IMG/VR virus record: IMGVR_UViG_3300048924_000230
Location: 1 to 32,019 of that record
Strand: one strand, 5' to 3'
Source: a virus
Length of the DNA stretch: 32,019 nucleotides
Shown: one piece after another, positions 10,631-31,334 of the stretch
Layout of the letters: each line of letters starts with the position of its first letter
How positions within the stretch are numbered: the stretch's first letter is position 1
Notes under the pieces: model-generated
Database searches by the model: none
Told to the model about the DNA's origin: nothing
Seen by the model: only the letters and a program-made list of their open reading frames with translations
Made by a program: the position numbers and the translations under genes

Positions 10631-10940
10631 TTTCATCCCCTGAATCCCGCGCAATCTCCCGGCGCGATTCCCGCTCAAACATCCGCGCCACGTTTTCGCT
10701 TATCGTAACTTTGTGGCGCGGGCTTTCAATCGCTTGATAGGAAAGCGTTGGCCCGAGGGCATGAGCGTTGATGATCAGGTTCTGCACCGCCTCGCTGATC
10801 TCCTCGATGTCGTTCCACTGCATCAGCTCCTCAAGCTTCTGCCGGGTTCCGAGCCGTAGCCGGTGGCGCAACTCCTTCTCGTCGAACTCTTCGCGCTTCT
10901 TCGCCGACTTGGCGCTGCGCTCTTTCTGATCCACTGCCAT
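10611..10940 (-). CDS. Hypothetical phage protein, 109 aa
   Basis: Charged helical N-terminus (KERSAKSAKKREEFDEKELRHRLRLGTRQKLEELMQW) followed by EEISEAVQNLIINAHALG and PRHKVTISENVARMFERESRREIARDSG. The size and basic-helical make-up suggest nucleic-acid binding, but no definite HTH can be assigned. It contains one copy of the CGCGCCAC/GTGGCGCG palindromic element, which encodes the PRHK...NVAR stretch. Part of the leftward operon. Confidence 0.7.
   Translation of the reverse strand: MAVDQKERSAKSAKKREEFDEKELRHRLRLGTRQKLEELMQWNDIEEISEAVQNLIINAHALGPTLSYQAIESPRHKVTISENVARMFERESRREIARDSGDEIIVPGV
10683..10721. repeat. Palindromic element copy 1 (CCGCGCCAC ... GTGGCGCGG)
   Basis: A perfect 9-bp inverted repeat (10683-10691 and 10713-10721) with a 21-nt loop, inside a minus-strand coding sequence. 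It shares its arms, and the run CGCGCCACGTTTTC, with the element in rha; a third copy lies at 29496-29532. Confidence 0.75.
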
Positions 10941-21438: not shown

Positions 21439-22239
21439 ATGCACAGCCATCAAAACTTGATCAATACCCCAGAAGCCGCGCCACGTTTTCATACTCAACA
21501 AAACGTGGCGCGCACTATGTCTTCGCGTGAGATCGCGAACCTTACTGGTAAACGTCATCCAGACGTGAAGCGCGACATCCAAACCATGGCTTCCGAGCTA
21601 AAAGTTAATGTGAGCAGTTTTGCTCACATCTACCTCGACGGCCGGAACCGCGAGCAAACCGAATATCTGCTTGATCGTGAGCACACAGATTGCCTGCTCA
21701 CCGGTTACAGCGCTGGCCTGCGCATGATGGTCATCCGCCGCTGGCACGAACTTGAGCAGCAGTCGGCGTCGCGCGAGGCTGTCACGGCGAACGGAACGAA
21801 GGTCATCGGCGAAATCGCGATCATGGAATGCTTCACGCGCCTGCTGAAGCCTGCGCCGTCCAGCCAGATGCTCATGCTGACCAAGATCGCCGAGAACAAC
21901 GGCCTCGATCCGAAGTTTCTCCCAGGCTATGCCGTGGACGCTGCACCGGATGCTGCTGGCGGCTCCTCGATGCCTACTAAATCCGCTACCGCTCTGCTGA
22001 AGGACTTCGGCTTGGGCGGCTCGGTCGTGTCCTTCAACAAGAAGCTCGAAGCCGCCGGCTACCTCAAGGTGTTGACCCGCAAGAACTCGAAGCAGGAGGT
22101 CGTTCCGTTCTGGTCGATCACTGATAAGGGCCTCGCCTATGGCAAGAACCTGACCAGCCCTCAATCCCCTCGCGAAACGCAGCCTCACTGGTACGTCGAT
22201 CGCTTCCTAGAATTGGCCAAATTGGTCGGGAAGGCCTGA
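21439..22239 (+). CDS. rha: Rha-family phage regulatory protein with C-terminal DNA-binding domain
   Basis: 266 residues from ATG 21439 with GAGGCAAG upstream. The N-terminal Rha domain (as in P22/phi-80 Rha, a regulator active in hosts without IHF) reads MSSREIANLTGKRHPDVKRDIQTM ... YLLDREHTDCLLTGYSAGLRMMVIRRWHELE. The C-terminal region (ATALLKDFGLGGSVVSFNKKLEAAGYLKVLTRKN...WSITDKGLAYGKNL) resembles the DNA-binding end of phage antirepressors. The first 25 codons contain a 13-bp perfect inverted repeat (21477-21512), part of the recurrent palindromic element. Confidence 0.88.
   Translation: MHSHQNLINTPEAAPRFHTQQNVARTMSSREIANLTGKRHPDVKRDIQTMASELKVNVSSFAHIYLDGRNREQTEYLLDREHTDCLLTGYSAGLRMMVIRRWHELEQQSASREAVTANGTKVIGEIAIMECFTRLLKPAPSSQMLMLTKIAENNGLDPKFLPGYAVDAAPDAAGGSSMPTKSATALLKDFGLGGSVVSFNKKLEAAGYLKVLTRKNSKQEVVPFWSITDKGLAYGKNLTSPQSPRETQPHWYVDRFLELAKLVGKA
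21477..21512. repeat. Palindromic element copy 2, 13-bp perfect arms
   Basis: CGCGCCACGTTTT (21477-21489) and AAAACGTGGCGCG (21500-21512) are perfect inverted repeats with a 10-nt loop, inside rha. The right side continues GTGGCGCGCAC, shared with the copy at 29496-29532. Confidence 0.85.
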
Positions 22240-27735: not shown

Positions 27736-28050
27736 TCACGCTAGCCTTTTGGTGCCGGCTTTTTTTATGAATAATTGGGTAATGCTTATGACATTTCTTG
27801 TACCCATAACAAGGTTGAAAACCCACACGAGCAGATTAACAATTTCTTTGCGGGTTGCTGGCTCGGGTCCCTTGCTAAATTCGAAAATGAGCCAGATCGC
27901 AGTTAAGATTATTGCGATTTGGCTCAAAAGCACTGTTGTCATCAGAAAGTTTGCCCTTGCCTGAACTGGGGCTGCGAAAAACGCCAGTAACAGCCCGAGC
28001 ACGGCCACGGTAGTGCCTACTACCCCAGACAGCTGATTCGCGTATTCCAT
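27736..28050 (-). CDS. Three-TM membrane protein, third gene of the hicAB operon
   Basis: 104 residues with hydrophobic segments LSGVVGTTVAVLGLLLAFFAA, FLMTTVLLSQIAIILTAIWLIFEF and IVNLLVWVFNLVMGTRNVISI, and a basic end (KKAGTKRLA). Its ATG overlaps the hicB stop (TAATG), so it is translated with hicB. It is AT-rich and in the opposite direction to the late genes around it. HicAB loci normally have two genes; a coupled membrane protein is unusual. Function unknown: a membrane partner or an unrelated conversion gene. Confidence 0.75.
   Translation of the reverse strand: MEYANQLSGVVGTTVAVLGLLLAFFAAPVQARANFLMTTVLLSQIAIILTAIWLIFEFSKGPEPATRKEIVNLLVWVFNLVMGTRNVISITQLFIKKAGTKRLA
27743..27766 (+). 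terminator. Weak plus-strand terminator
   Basis: AGCC (27743-27746) and GGCT (27757-27760) with a 10-nt loop, followed by seven T (27760-27766). It overlaps the 3' end of the minus-strand membrane-protein gene, implying that something is transcribed in the plus direction across 27494-27735. Confidence 0.4.
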
Positions 28051-28475
28051 TATGCAGCCTCAACTGTGAAGATCAGCCGCTTGCCCAGTGCTGCGAGAGC
28101 TGCCTCGATCTGGTCCATTTTCGATGTATGCAGGAAGTCAACAAGGCGGTCGCCTTGGGTCTGACTCACCCCGAGCAATCTGCATAGATCGGCCTTGCGC
28201 ATACCCCGGTCCATCATCGCGTTCCACAGAGCGATCTTCGCGACTGTCACAGCCGGGAGATAGACAACGTGTTCGCCAGACTCTGGTGCACTTGCTTCCG
28301 GAATCACTTTTCGCTCGTCGACATAAATCGACAATGTGGTCTCGATTCCGTCCACGGCTTCCTGCAGCGCGTGCTGTTCGTCATCGCCGTAGCTGTTGAA
28401 CTGCGGCAGATCACGGCAGAACACTGCCAGCCCTGGCGTTTCATCACGTTCAAATCGAATTGCATAGTTGTACAT
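28050..28475 (-). CDS. hicB: HicB-family antitoxin
   Basis: 141 residues from ATG 28475, with GAGGAGTGACC directly before it. The N-terminal HicB fold (YNYAIRFERDETPGLAVFCRDLPQFNSYGDDEQHALQEAVDGIETTLSIYVDERKVIPEAS) is the degraded RNase-H-like domain that covers the toxin. The C-terminal HTH (ALWNAMMDRGMRKADLCRLLGVSQTQGDRLVDFLHTSKMDQIEAALAALG) binds the operator. It follows hicA by 51 bp. It should neutralise HicA and autoregulate through the palindrome at 28756-28777. Confidence 0.92.
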   Translation of the reverse strand: MYNYAIRFERDETPGLAVFCRDLPQFNSYGDDEQHALQEAVDGIETTLSIYVDERKVIPEASAPESGEHVVYLPAVTVAKIALWNAMMDRGMRKADLCRLLGVSQTQGDRLVDFLHTSKMDQIEAALAALGKRLIFTVEAA

Positions 28476-28526
28476 GGTCACTCCTCGGAGGTGATCGTTC
28501 AGCGGTCGGATAGGCGAAGGGGGCTC

Positions 28527-28706
28527 TCAAAGCCCCAGTTGTTTGATTATCGCCTTGCGGGTTCCTTCGGGCATTTCCTTAGCCCCGTGATCCGCGAAGG
28601 TTGTCTTATTGCCGTTTGGGGCGGTGACTTTGAAGTGGCTTCCTTTGCCAGCTTCGAAGGTCACCCCTTGAGCCTTCAACCATCGTCTGAACTCGCTGAA
28701 CTTCAT
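28527..28706 (-). CDS. hicA: HicA-family mRNA interferase toxin
   Basis: 59 residues, the normal length. KFSEFRRWLKAQGVTFEAGKGSHFKVTAPNGNKTTFADHGAKEMPEGTRKAIIKQLGL shows the dsRBD-like fold with the catalytic histidine in GKGSHFKV (His23) and the conserved end P-x-G-T-x-x-x-I-x-K-Q-L. ATG 28706 is used because GAGG lies 3-8 bases upstream; GTG 28709 is in frame. HicA cleaves mRNA when freed from HicB. In a prophage it may stabilise the lysogen or act in phage exclusion. Confidence 0.93.
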   Translation of the reverse strand: MKFSEFRRWLKAQGVTFEAGKGSHFKVTAPNGNKTTFADHGAKEMPEGTRKAIIKQLGL

Positions 28707-28734
28707 CACCTCGCCTCGTTGTTTGGATGAGTCC

Positions 28735-28762
28735 AGTATACATCACTTCTGTGGTAATACAA
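28735..28762 (-). promoter_or_regulatory. Promoter of the hic operon
   Basis: On the minus strand, -35 TTGTAT (28762-28757), a 16-bp spacer and -10 TATACT (28740-28735), 29 bp before hicA. The -35 lies inside the palindromic operator. Confidence 0.7.
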
Positions 28763-28777
28763 CAAATATGTTGTATT
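28756..28777. promoter_or_regulatory. HicB operator palindrome
   Basis: AATACAACA (28756-28764) and TGTTGTATT (28769-28777) with a 4-bp AATA centre: a perfect 9-bp inverted repeat covering the -35 box of the hic promoter, as expected for HicB autoregulation. Confidence 0.8.
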
Positions 28778-28807
28778 GCCGTTCATGCCCAGTACGGAGT
28801 CGAGCGC

Positions 28808-29137
28808 ATGGAATTTTTACAGCGCCTGTTCGATAAACTGGACTGGGCATTTGCTGGATTGCTTGGCGCTATCGCTGCAAGCTTCTGGCACCGAGATGAC
28901 CTGGTAGACCGAAAGGCGTGGGTGATCTTCATTTTCTCCGGCGCCGTAAGCGCCCATTACCTCACAGGACTGATCAGCGCCTACTTCGGAGTGGTTGAGC
29001 CTCGGAGTGTGGCGGGAGTTGGCTTCCTGTTGGGTACCTTCGGGGGGTCGCTCATCGCGGCGATCACCCGGGCCATCAAAGCCGCTGACCTCTGGGCTCT
29101 AATTCGCCAGCGGTTCGGGGGAGGCAATCCACCATGA
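28808..29137 (+). CDS. Holin-like membrane protein
   Basis: 109 residues from ATG 28808. Three hydrophobic segments: LDWAFAGLLGAIAASFW, VIFIFSGAVSAHYLTGLISAYF and VAGVGFLLGTFGGSLIAAITRAI, with a charged C-terminus ending RQRFGGGNPP. Size, three membrane helices and the coupled second membrane gene fit a class I phage holin, which would open the membrane for an endolysin. The frame opens at 28727, but that part overlaps the hic promoter. No endolysin is in the window. Confidence 0.75.
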   Translation: MEFLQRLFDKLDWAFAGLLGAIAASFWHRDDLVDRKAWVIFIFSGAVSAHYLTGLISAYFGVVEPRSVAGVGFLLGTFGGSLIAAITRAIKAADLWALIRQRFGGGNPP

Positions 29138-29493
29138 ACCTTGAACTGATCAACTCCATTGCCTGCGGCCTGATTGCGCTGTGGGCCACCTGGTGCGTGT
29201 TGAGCGGAAAGGTCCGGGACGGGATCGTCGGCAAGGTCATTTATTCGGCGATCGCCATCAGTGGCTTTGTGGTGATGACGCGCAACCAAACCCTCTTCTT
29301 CGGCCCGACCAATGCAGGGCTGACGCTTCATGCATCCCTCTGCCTGGCTGGAGTACGCCACATGTTCATGGTCACGTATTGGCCGGCGGTGAAGAAGTGG
29401 ATCTGCTCGAAGCTGAACTGCGAGCACTGCCTTCGTGATCCGCGCTTTGGTGCGCAGCCTGGCCAGGTGGATCGCCGCCGTCGGCCGCGCTGA
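29134..29493 (+). CDS. Second holin-like (putative 3TM holin family) protein
   Basis: 119 residues, ATG overlapping the previous stop. Hydrophobic segments SIACGLIALWATWCVL, IYSAIAISGFVVM and a weaker AGLTLHASLCLAGVRHMFMV, then a Cys-containing basic tail (ICSKLNCEHCLRDPRFGAQPG...RRRRPR). The layout resembles the phage_holin_3_7 family. It may be the partner (antiholin or pinholin) of the previous gene. Confidence 0.7.
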   Translation: MNLELINSIACGLIALWATWCVLSGKVRDGIVGKVIYSAIAISGFVVMTRNQTLFFGPTNAGLTLHASLCLAGVRHMFMVTYWPAVKKWICSKLNCEHCLRDPRFGAQPGQVDRRRRPR

Positions 29494-29495
29494 TC

Positions 29496-29532
29496 CGCGC
29501 CACAAATTCAGATGCGTCCGTTTCGTGGCGCG
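29496..29532. repeat. Palindromic element copy 3 (CGCGCCAC ... GTGGCGCG)
   Basis: CGCGCCACAAA (29496-29506) faces TTT-C-GTGGCGCG (29521-29532). The 8-bp outer arms are perfect and enclose a 21-nt loop. It lies in the gap between the second holin-like gene and the Tad2-like gene, ending 15 bp before that start. The right arm continues as GTGGCGCGCAC, as in rha. Confidence 0.8.
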
Positions 29533-29546
29533 CACGGAGATAGAAC

Positions 29547-29948
29547 ATGACCGACATCACTCGCCACCCCCTCATTTTGCAAGCCTATGAGGTCTGCCAG
29601 GCAATTGAGGCATGCGGCGCTTCGGTTGAGCTGACAAACGCAGTCTGCAAGGCCAGTGCGCTGATGTCCGATTTGGACAAGTCGATCCCAGACACCCGCA
29701 CCGGCATGAGCTTCGGTCTGGCGGTTGCCGCGATGAAGCAGGGGAAGCGCGTTGCGCGCCAAGGATGGAACGGCAAGGGCATGTGGCTGAAGCTCGTTCC
29801 TGAAGACCTAGCCGAGACAGTTGCCTTTCAGCACGAGGCATTGAAGCCGCTGCCGTGGATCGGCATGAAAACGGCAAATGAGCACTTTGTTCCATGGCTC
29901 GCATCGCAGACTGACGTGCTGTCGGATGACTGGACAGTATTTGAATGA
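29547..29948 (+). CDS. Tad2-like (DUF2829) anti-defence domain with helical N-terminus
   Basis: 133 residues; ATG 29547 with GGAGATAG upstream. Residues 1-48 form a helical domain (HPLILQAYEVCQAIEACGASVELTNAVCKASALMSDLDKSI) seen in other Pseudomonas phage proteins. Residues 53-133 match DUF2829: GMSFGLAVAAMKQGKRVARQGWNGKGMWLKLVPED ... LPWIGMKTANEHFVPWLASQTDVLSDDWTVFE. DUF2829 is the fold of Tad2, which binds and sequesters the cyclic ADP-ribose signal of the Thoeris defence. Binding-site identity cannot be judged by eye, so anti-Thoeris activity is inferred. The next gene overlaps by 4 bp. Confidence 0.85.
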   Translation: MTDITRHPLILQAYEVCQAIEACGASVELTNAVCKASALMSDLDKSIPDTRTGMSFGLAVAAMKQGKRVARQGWNGKGMWLKLVPEDLAETVAFQHEALKPLPWIGMKTANEHFVPWLASQTDVLSDDWTVFE

Positions 29949-30376
29949 CGACCATCGCCTACAAAGACGGCGTCATCGCCTATGACTCCCAGATCACCCG
30001 TGGTGACGTCATTACGTATGACGACTACGAGAAATGCCTGGAGCGGGAAGGAGTGAAGTTCTTCTGCTCCGGAGCGGTCTCGGATTATCCGCGTCTGGTG
30101 GACGTCTACTTCGGCGGCAAGCCAGAGGGCAACATCGACGCCTCAGCCCTCGTACTGGACGGCGACAAGCTGATGATGGTTGCAGTGGATGACGCCAGCG
30201 GCCTGTGGAAGGCCCCGGTCATGATGGATCGGCCTTACGCTATTGGCAGCGGTACGCCGTACGCTTTCGCGGCGATGGACATGGGCGCAACGGCTGTTCG
30301 GGCGGTGGAGATTGCGGCAAAGCGCGATACCAGCACTGGTGGGACGATTCGGGCAGTCGTTATCGCGGCAGAATAG
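29945..30376 (+). CDS. Phage Ntn-hydrolase, proteasome/HslV-like
   Basis: 143 residues beginning M-TTIAYKDGVIAYDSQITRG, the pattern of HslV/proteasome beta subunits (N-terminal nucleophile Thr2 after Met removal). Later features are D14, K30, CSGAVSDYPRLV, AIGSGTPYAFAAMDMG and RDTSTGGTIRAVVI. The order T-D-K-G-S-G-D parallels the active site of Ntn proteases. Such small homologues are known from phage genomes near structural genes. The substrate is unknown. Coupled to the Tad2-like gene (ATGA). Confidence 0.8.
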   Translation: MTTIAYKDGVIAYDSQITRGDVITYDDYEKCLEREGVKFFCSGAVSDYPRLVDVYFGGKPEGNIDASALVLDGDKLMMVAVDDASGLWKAPVMMDRPYAIGSGTPYAFAAMDMGATAVRAVEIAAKRDTSTGGTIRAVVIAAE

Positions 30377-30473: not shown

Positions 30474-30665
30474 ATGTCTGAGATTGCAAAGGGTGATGTT
30501 GTTCAGCTGAAAAGCGGCGGACCAAAAATGACTGTTACCGAAGTGGGCAACTATGGGGGTGGCTGGGGTGCTGGTCCAGAGAACGGCGCTAAGTGTGTTT
30601 GGTTCGAAAAGAACAAGGCAGAGGAAAAGGTTTTTGACGTAGCGGTTCTGGTAAAGGCCGAGTGA
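30474..30665 (+). CDS. YodC/DUF2158-family small protein
   Basis: 63 residues; AAAGGAG lies 7-13 bases before ATG 30474. Pattern GDVVQLKSGGPKMTVTEVG ... CVWFEKNKAEEKVFDVAVL is the SH3-like DUF2158 (YodC) fold. Function is not known in any member. Lies between the Ntn-hydrolase and the terminase genes; lower GC than its neighbours. Confidence 0.85.
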   Translation: MSEIAKGDVVQLKSGGPKMTVTEVGNYGGGWGAGPENGAKCVWFEKNKAEEKVFDVAVLVKAE

Positions 30666-30734: not shown

Positions 30735-31334
30735 ATGACAACCAAGCAACCCGATTGGGAGGCGATTGAACGCGCCTACCGGGCGGGTGCGCTTTCCATC
30801 AGAACCATTGCCGAACGCAATGGAATCAGTGACACCGCCATTCGCAAGAAAGCCAAGTCATCCGGATGGGCTCGCGACCTCTCAGAGCAGGTGCGCAAAG
30901 AGGTTCGCAACAAGCTGGTTCGCGGTGAGGTTCGCGAAGAGCATTGTGCGAACCCTGAGCGTGATGCTGAGATCGTCGAAGAGGCGGCTGAAGAGGGCGC
31001 ACGGGTTGTTCGCAGCCACCGGCGCGACATTCGCAAGGCCACGAACCTTGCGAACCTGCTGATGGATGACCTGCTGACCACGATCGGCAAGCGAGAAGAG
31101 ATCGAAGACTCGATTGAAGCCGAAACTGCGGATGATACGAACGGTATGCGGCGGGCGACGATGCTTTCCGCTGTGGCGCTGCCGAGCAACGCCAAAACCC
31201 TGTTTCAACTCTCGTCGGCCATGAAGAACCTCCAGGTGTTGGAGCGCCAAGCCTACAGCCTGGACGAGAAAGAGAAGACCGACGACTCGGAAGACCTCTC
31301 CAAGCTGATGGATGAATTATCGAAGGAAGCCTGA
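30735..31334 (+). CDS. terS: Terminase small subunit
   Basis: 199 residues; AAGGATG lies just before ATG 30735. The N-terminal HTH DWEAIERAYRAGALSIRTIAERNGISDTAIRKKAKSSGWARDL (residues 7-49) is the DNA-recognition domain of phage small terminases. A long helical, oligomerising part and an acidic C-terminal end (SEDLSKLMDELSKEA) follow and likely contact the large subunit. It selects the pac or cos site; its own gene or the region before it may contain that site. Confidence 0.88.
   Translation: MTTKQPDWEAIERAYRAGALSIRTIAERNGISDTAIRKKAKSSGWARDLSEQVRKEVRNKLVRGEVREEHCANPERDAEIVEEAAEEGARVVRSHRRDIRKATNLANLLMDDLLTTIGKREEIEDSIEAETADDTNGMRRATMLSAVALPSNAKTLFQLSSAMKNLQVLERQAYSLDEKEKTDDSEDLSKLMDELSKEA

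Follow-up and report, generated by a model that had tools for sequence, protein, structure and literature searches.

A predicted Tad2 signal sponge with a movable helical hairpin in a replaceable slot between holin and HslV-like genes of a temperate phage

Results

Gene and genome setting

The window, by which we mean the whole stretch of DNA analysed, is a 32,019-base virus record (IMGVR_UViG_3300048924_000230), a fragment with genes for a phage integrase, an S24-type repressor, Rha, NinG, two holins and a small terminase subunit. It comes from a lambda-like temperate phage of Pseudomonas type, and its DNA-level similarity is to Pseudomonas phages. A tRNA-Pro(GGG) at 645-721 adjoins the integrase gene (804-1988) and is likely the prophage attachment site. 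The features relevant to this study are:

28727..29137, plus strand: holin gene (phrog_2359)
29134..29493, plus strand: second holin gene, left neighbour of the slot (phrog_2508)
29496..29532, no strand assigned: imperfect palindrome CGCGCCAC-N21-GTGGCGCG, left slot border, directly upstream of the hairpin-Tad2 gene
29547..29948, plus strand: hairpin-Tad2 gene, 133 aa and stop (open ORF, ATG at 29547, GGAG at 29536-29539)
29547..29690, plus strand: two-helix hairpin module, residues 1-48, helices 8-22 and 27-45 (AlphaFold, module family alignments)
29703..29945, plus strand: Tad2 domain, residues 53-133 (PF11195, Z 12.9 to SPO1 Tad2)
29760..29783, plus strand: β1-β2 loop QGWNGKGM, residues 72-79, pocket-lining (alignment to SPO1 Tad2, ModTad2, HgmTad2 and SptTad2; segments according to PMC12043709)
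29865..29921, plus strand: MKTANEHFVPWLASQTDVL, residues 107-125, pocket-lining segments (model, alignment; PMC12043709)
29945..30376, plus strand: HslV/proteasome-like Ntn-hydrolase gene, right slot border, 4-base overlap with the Tad2 gene (phrog_1040, E 1e-40; conserved across 80 loci)
30474..30665, plus strand: DUF2158 small protein gene (PF09926)
30735..31334, plus strand: small terminase subunit gene (phrog_1206)

The hairpin-Tad2 ORF was confirmed as genuine. Its ATG is backed by relatives (L082, L083, L172) with the same MTxIxRHPL beginning, and its stop codon shares four bases with the ATG of the following gene (ATGA, 29945-29948). The first-pass annotation had placed the gene at the lysis/packaging junction and coupled it to an Ntn-hydrolase. 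Both points hold, with holins on the left, the small terminase subunit on the right and the ATGA overlap with the HslV-like gene. A HicAB toxin-antitoxin pair (28050-28709, minus strand) adjoins the holins, and HicB homologues are also found near the lysis region in L003, L232, L293, L299 and L302.

The Tad2 domain and its predicted ligand

Residues 54-131 match the Tad2-like family PF11195 with 88.5 bits (E 4.3e-25; profile positions 1-72 of 73), the curated cut-off being 25 bits, and solved Tad2 sequences from the PDB match the protein at E values of 8e-15 to 4e-13. An AlphaFold2 model based on a 57-sequence alignment has a mean pLDDT of 84.9 and consists of two helices (8-22 and 27-45) followed by the Tad2 fold; this full-length model was built with Tad2 relatives only, and the hairpin was modelled separately. 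When the model was compared with known structures using VIA-align, all solved Tad2 entries listed scored Z 10.5-12.9, with the next best protein at 5.8. This bears out the earlier assignment of the C-terminal ~80 residues to DUF2829/Tad2, preceded by an extra helical domain.

Tad2 is a homotetramer with two gcADPR pockets, to which one protomer contributes the β1-β2 loop, the β3-β4 loop and strand β4, and a second protomer the β1-β2 loop, the β4-α3 loop and helix α3 (PMC12043709). In the protein described here, the counterparts are GWNGKGM (residues 73-79) and MKTANEHFVPWLASQTDVL, which spans the end of β3, the β3-β4 loop, β4, the β4-α3 loop and helix α3. Every residue that the solved SPO1, Mod, Hgm and Spt Tad2 proteins share within or close to the pocket segments is kept (R71, G73, W74, N75, G76, K77, M79, W117, S120, D123, D128 and W129). 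The comparison with Tad2 ligand pockets proposed in the first-pass annotation thus found the pocket intact, as assessed by segments and conservation rather than by ligand contacts of single residues.

Known Tad2 proteins differ in their ligands, SPO1 Tad2 binding gcADPR and ModTad2 His-ADPR (PMC13299392), while SptTad2 and HgmTad2 bind cyclic dinucleotides, an activity tied to a long insertion after β2 (PMC12043709). Structurally, the closest of these is the gcADPR sponge SPO1 Tad2 (Gp34.65; PDB 8sme, 8smf, 8smg, 8wje), with Z 12.9 to 8wje_B and 43% identity over 77 residues. It shares the pocket segments, the short insertion and the lack of an additional residue ahead of the conserved Trp; unlike the present protein, it has 89 aa, no N-terminal domain and an insertion ~5 residues longer. 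The best PDB sequence match (E 8e-15) is the His-ADPR sponge ModTad2 from a Myroides odoratus prophage (PDB 9eib, 8v3e), likewise of the short form (Z 12.3 to 8v3e); it differs in having no N-terminal domain and in reading SVSD in helix α3, where SQTD is found here. HgmTad2/AcrIIA7 and SptTad2 (PDB 8kbi-8kbm, 8wjd), which are cADPR and cyclic-dinucleotide sponges, share the fold (Z 10.5-11.9) and the GWNGKGM and WLASQTD motifs, but carry the long post-β2 insertion with the cyclic-dinucleotide site. Both alignment and model indicate that such an insertion is absent from the hairpin-Tad2 protein: M79 to I105 are separated by 26 residues, and the domain has 81 aa as opposed to 101-104 aa in SptTad2 and HgmTad2. 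Since this protein shares the short insertion of SPO1 Tad2 and ModTad2, the putative ligand is predicted to be an ADPR-type signal made by a TIR enzyme, and no cyclic-dinucleotide site is expected.

It is unlikely that the domain acts mainly on another target, either cyclic dinucleotides or, as claimed for AcrIIA7, Cas9, instead of Thoeris signals. The cyclic-dinucleotide binding of SptTad2 and HgmTad2 would favour such a target, and an activity of another kind is conceivable because PF11195 includes AcrIIA7, deposited as a type II CRISPR-Cas inhibitor; HgmTad2 has itself also been deposited as AcrIIA7. However, the short insertion speaks against cyclic-dinucleotide binding. Extra N-domains are common among Tad2 proteins, so both the fold and the likely function of the hairpin-Tad2 protein are already known.

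The N-terminal hairpin

Residues 1-48 have no match in Pfam or PHROG. Modelled alone, the hairpin has a pLDDT of 76 (moderate confidence). In an alignment of eight sequences, I20, E21, C23, A25, S26, E28, L29, T30, A32, V33 and A36 are invariant, a pattern consistent with two packed helices joined by a tight turn. We refer to these sequences as the hairpin (CGAS) family, recognised by the motif IExCGASxELTxAVxxA within a two-helix hairpin, both of which residues 1-48 possess. The family is newly described here; no Pfam match to it was found.

A profile of the hairpin identified 29 IMG/VR loci and a few genomes, after a first genome scan with hairpin alignment A1 had given no match. The hairpin occurs by itself in proteins of 62-67 aa (L084, L150), ahead of a crAss001_48 domain (PF21825; L082), ahead of a weakly DUF7917-like domain (L172; E 0.0017, below the cut-off) and downstream of Phage_gp49_66 (PF13876; L193, L194). 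A second pairing with Tad2 was found in L201, where a gp49_66-hairpin-Tad2 protein carries a different Tad2 domain. The profile search suggested in the first-pass annotation thus uncovered several further fusion partners, and sequence comparison indicates that the hairpin is a movable module.

Several weaker similarities were rejected. The hairpin profile also matched a 363-aa protein found in several Pseudomonas genomes (E 0.001-0.009) and a repeat-like ORF (L182), hits that were judged to be chance. Against the PDB, hmmsearch with the hairpin found nothing and Foldseek gave chance-level matches only (E above 5); helical entries at Z 4-5.6 in VIA-align were discounted as relatives, such scores being common for helices. 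PADLOC yielded nothing useful, and a literature search found nothing on DUF2829 fusions with this hairpin module.

Origin of the fusion

The five closest Tad2 domains all lack the hairpin, and four of them have a different N-terminal domain. In these YIGTK-Tad2 proteins (phrog_872; Pseudomonas phage phiAH14a, P. endophytica and others), the Tad2 domain is 73-79% identical and similar at the DNA level, but a domain of ~75 aa (YIGTK...SWSPK) stands where the hairpin stands here. DNA similarity to phiAH14a, L002, L003 and L094 starts at 29699-29703, corresponding to codons 51-53. Similarity to other hairpin genes (L082, L172) extends from 29543-29547 to 29666, while the DNA alignment with L083 runs from 29579 to 29706. 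Because the close Tad2 domains lack the hairpin and the DNA similarity starts at the domain border, the N-terminus appears to have been swapped; these sequences are most simply read as an exchange of one N-domain for another at that border.

Among 129 non-redundant Tad2 loci, 47 encode the YIGTK N-domain, 38 start at the Tad2 domain and the remaining 44 are extended upstream in other ways; this last number is an upper estimate, since start codons were assigned mechanically. With an extension of more than 15 aa in 91 of the 129 loci (again an upper estimate), N-terminal additions are frequent, and the fusion is therefore less special than the first-pass annotation held.

The fusion could also be a chance product of recombination in which the hairpin serves no selected function, or the gene could be decayed cargo. 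Indeed, the exact pairing, with the hairpin directly at the N-terminus and the YIGTK domain lost, was found once, and relatives carry unrelated genes at the same position. We nevertheless regard this as improbable: the frame is intact, a good ribosome-binding site and ATGA coupling are present, no conserved Tad2 residue has been lost, and L201 encodes another hairpin-Tad2 protein whose Tad2 domain differs. The protein in L201 also disfavours a sequencing artefact or reading-frame accident.

A replaceable slot between the holins and the HslV-like gene

The close relatives L232 and L233 align to the window with 85-94% identity as far as 29534 and 29550, respectively, and once more from 29945, the ATG of the HslV-like gene. 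Between these matching flanks lies a gene for a 69-aa helical GLPKG protein in L232 and for an 81-aa protein in L233. This shows that the holin-to-HslV interval is a one-gene replaceable slot.

In related, syntenic phages the slot holds Acb2 (PF24729), an anti-CBASS sponge, in the place that Tad2 takes here. Acb2 was found upstream of the HslV-like gene, within 2.5 kb, in 19 of the 80 loci fetched only for that gene, many of these 19 being related and thus not independent events. In L292 and L301, Acb2 (PF24729, 70.4 bits) directly follows the homologue of the second holin. Elsewhere, Tad2 and Acb2-like genes lie side by side (L025, L033/L034) or within 3 kb (L004, L056), which suggests clusters of signal sponges. 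A literature search found nothing on Acb2 together with a holin. The exchange of Tad2 and Acb2 at a single slot is new and is the more interesting result when set against the hairpin fusion.

A dual sponge that takes up an ADPR signal through its Tad2 half and, like the Acb2/Tad1 hairpins, cyclic oligonucleotides through its own hairpin is very unlikely: Acb2 is a helical-hairpin sponge found in the same slot of other phages and, like residues 1-48, a short helical hairpin, but the hairpin has no PF24729 match at E up to 1 and an hhalign profile-profile probability of 0.1%, its conserved residues (the CGAS turn, ELT, small and hydrophobic positions) look structural, and the module is mostly paired with domains not known as sponges. 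The Acb2 hairpin has no sequence relation to residues 1-48, and Acb2 is not among the fold matches of the hairpin-Tad2 protein. Binding of a second signal by the helical domain, one of the roles proposed in the first-pass annotation, is thereby disfavoured in its simplest form.

The contents of the slot include genes annotated without a function, and are by themselves no proof of a role in counter-defence. A small, helical-looking GLPQG family (DAAKAAGLPQGLIVxxLHGHAxAQT; L292 2148-2336, and L232, L289, L293, L300 and L307) directly follows Acb2, as in L292, or precedes HslV in the slot. Two members searched had no Pfam match, and the family is a candidate for counter-defence.

YIGTK-Tad2 genes were seen in two other settings. 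In L007 and its near-copies L008-L010, the gene overlaps an HslV-like gene at a site quite unlike that of the window, between portal-like and capsid-region genes. In L003 it follows hicAB and small putative lysis genes; this resembles its placement in the window, except that the HslV-like gene is missing. The HslV-like Ntn-hydrolase (29945-30376; L007 3240-3686) starts with Met-Thr-Thr; its gene shows translational coupling to Tad2 genes in two contexts unrelated to each other, and elsewhere it adjoins Acb2 genes.

A palindrome at the left border of the slot

The sequence directly before the hairpin-Tad2 gene is CGCGCCACAAATTCAGATGCGTCCGTTTCGTGGCGCG. The 35-base core of its palindrome is identical in L189, a locus with the hairpin module, and in the Acb2 loci L288 and L301; in other loci it differs mainly in the loop. 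The palindrome is present in 45 of the 80 HslV loci, compared with none of 1,600 shuffled loci. Among the IMG/VR matches listed, Acb2 is the most frequent next gene (23 of 143, a count that includes loci fetched for other reasons). Structural genes follow the palindrome as well, and from this sequence context it therefore appears to be a general border element rather than one restricted to counter-defence.

The 8-base arms recur in the window in two further copies, at 10684-10720 and 21477-21512. With its N20/21 spacing, the palindrome thus occurs three times in this phage, and more than a hundred copies are present in other virus records. A 109-aa ORF on the minus strand contains the copy at 10684, which is there translated as RHKVTISENVAR. 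A literature search found nothing on the sequence, and we count this dispersed palindrome among the new elements.

Discussion

We propose that the gene encodes a late-expressed Tad2 signal sponge with an ADPR-type ligand and a swapped-in portable hairpin, located in a replaceable slot, and give this explanation as a whole a probability of approximately 0.78. The protein would be expressed along with the late genes of the lambda-like temperate phage. By analogy with its family, the Tad2 domain most likely forms the Tad2 tetramer, which would bind, without degrading it, an ADP-ribose-derived signal of a TIR enzyme (gcADPR, a cADPR isomer or His-ADPR), and once the signal is bound the Thoeris effector would stay inactive. 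Sequence comparison suggests that recombination at the domain border put the hairpin in place of the N-domain that an older Tad2 protein had carried.

The most likely role of the hairpin would be to provide a surface for oligomerisation or docking, and not a second signal pocket. We infer this from its position beside the first helix of the Tad2 domain, the helix that forms the tetramer interface, and the assignment is tentative, at somewhat less than even odds. The first-pass interpretation is therefore partly supported, being right for the Tad2 half.

A broader proposal is that phage counter-defence and accessory proteins use the hairpin as a general add-on, which would give them a shared docking partner or higher-order assembly, and that Pseudomonas phages swap sponges (Tad2, Acb2) and genes such as GLPQG at an exchange site formed by the holin-to-HslV interval and its upstream palindrome. 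Taken together, we consider this doubtful.

As a portable module of 48 residues, the hairpin is amenable to tests of its effect on sponge capacity. The slot is a defined and testable site of single-gene exchange that holds signal sponges of two unrelated kinds, Acb2 and Tad2, and its uncharacterised genes, foremost GLPQG, become candidates for counter-defence screening.
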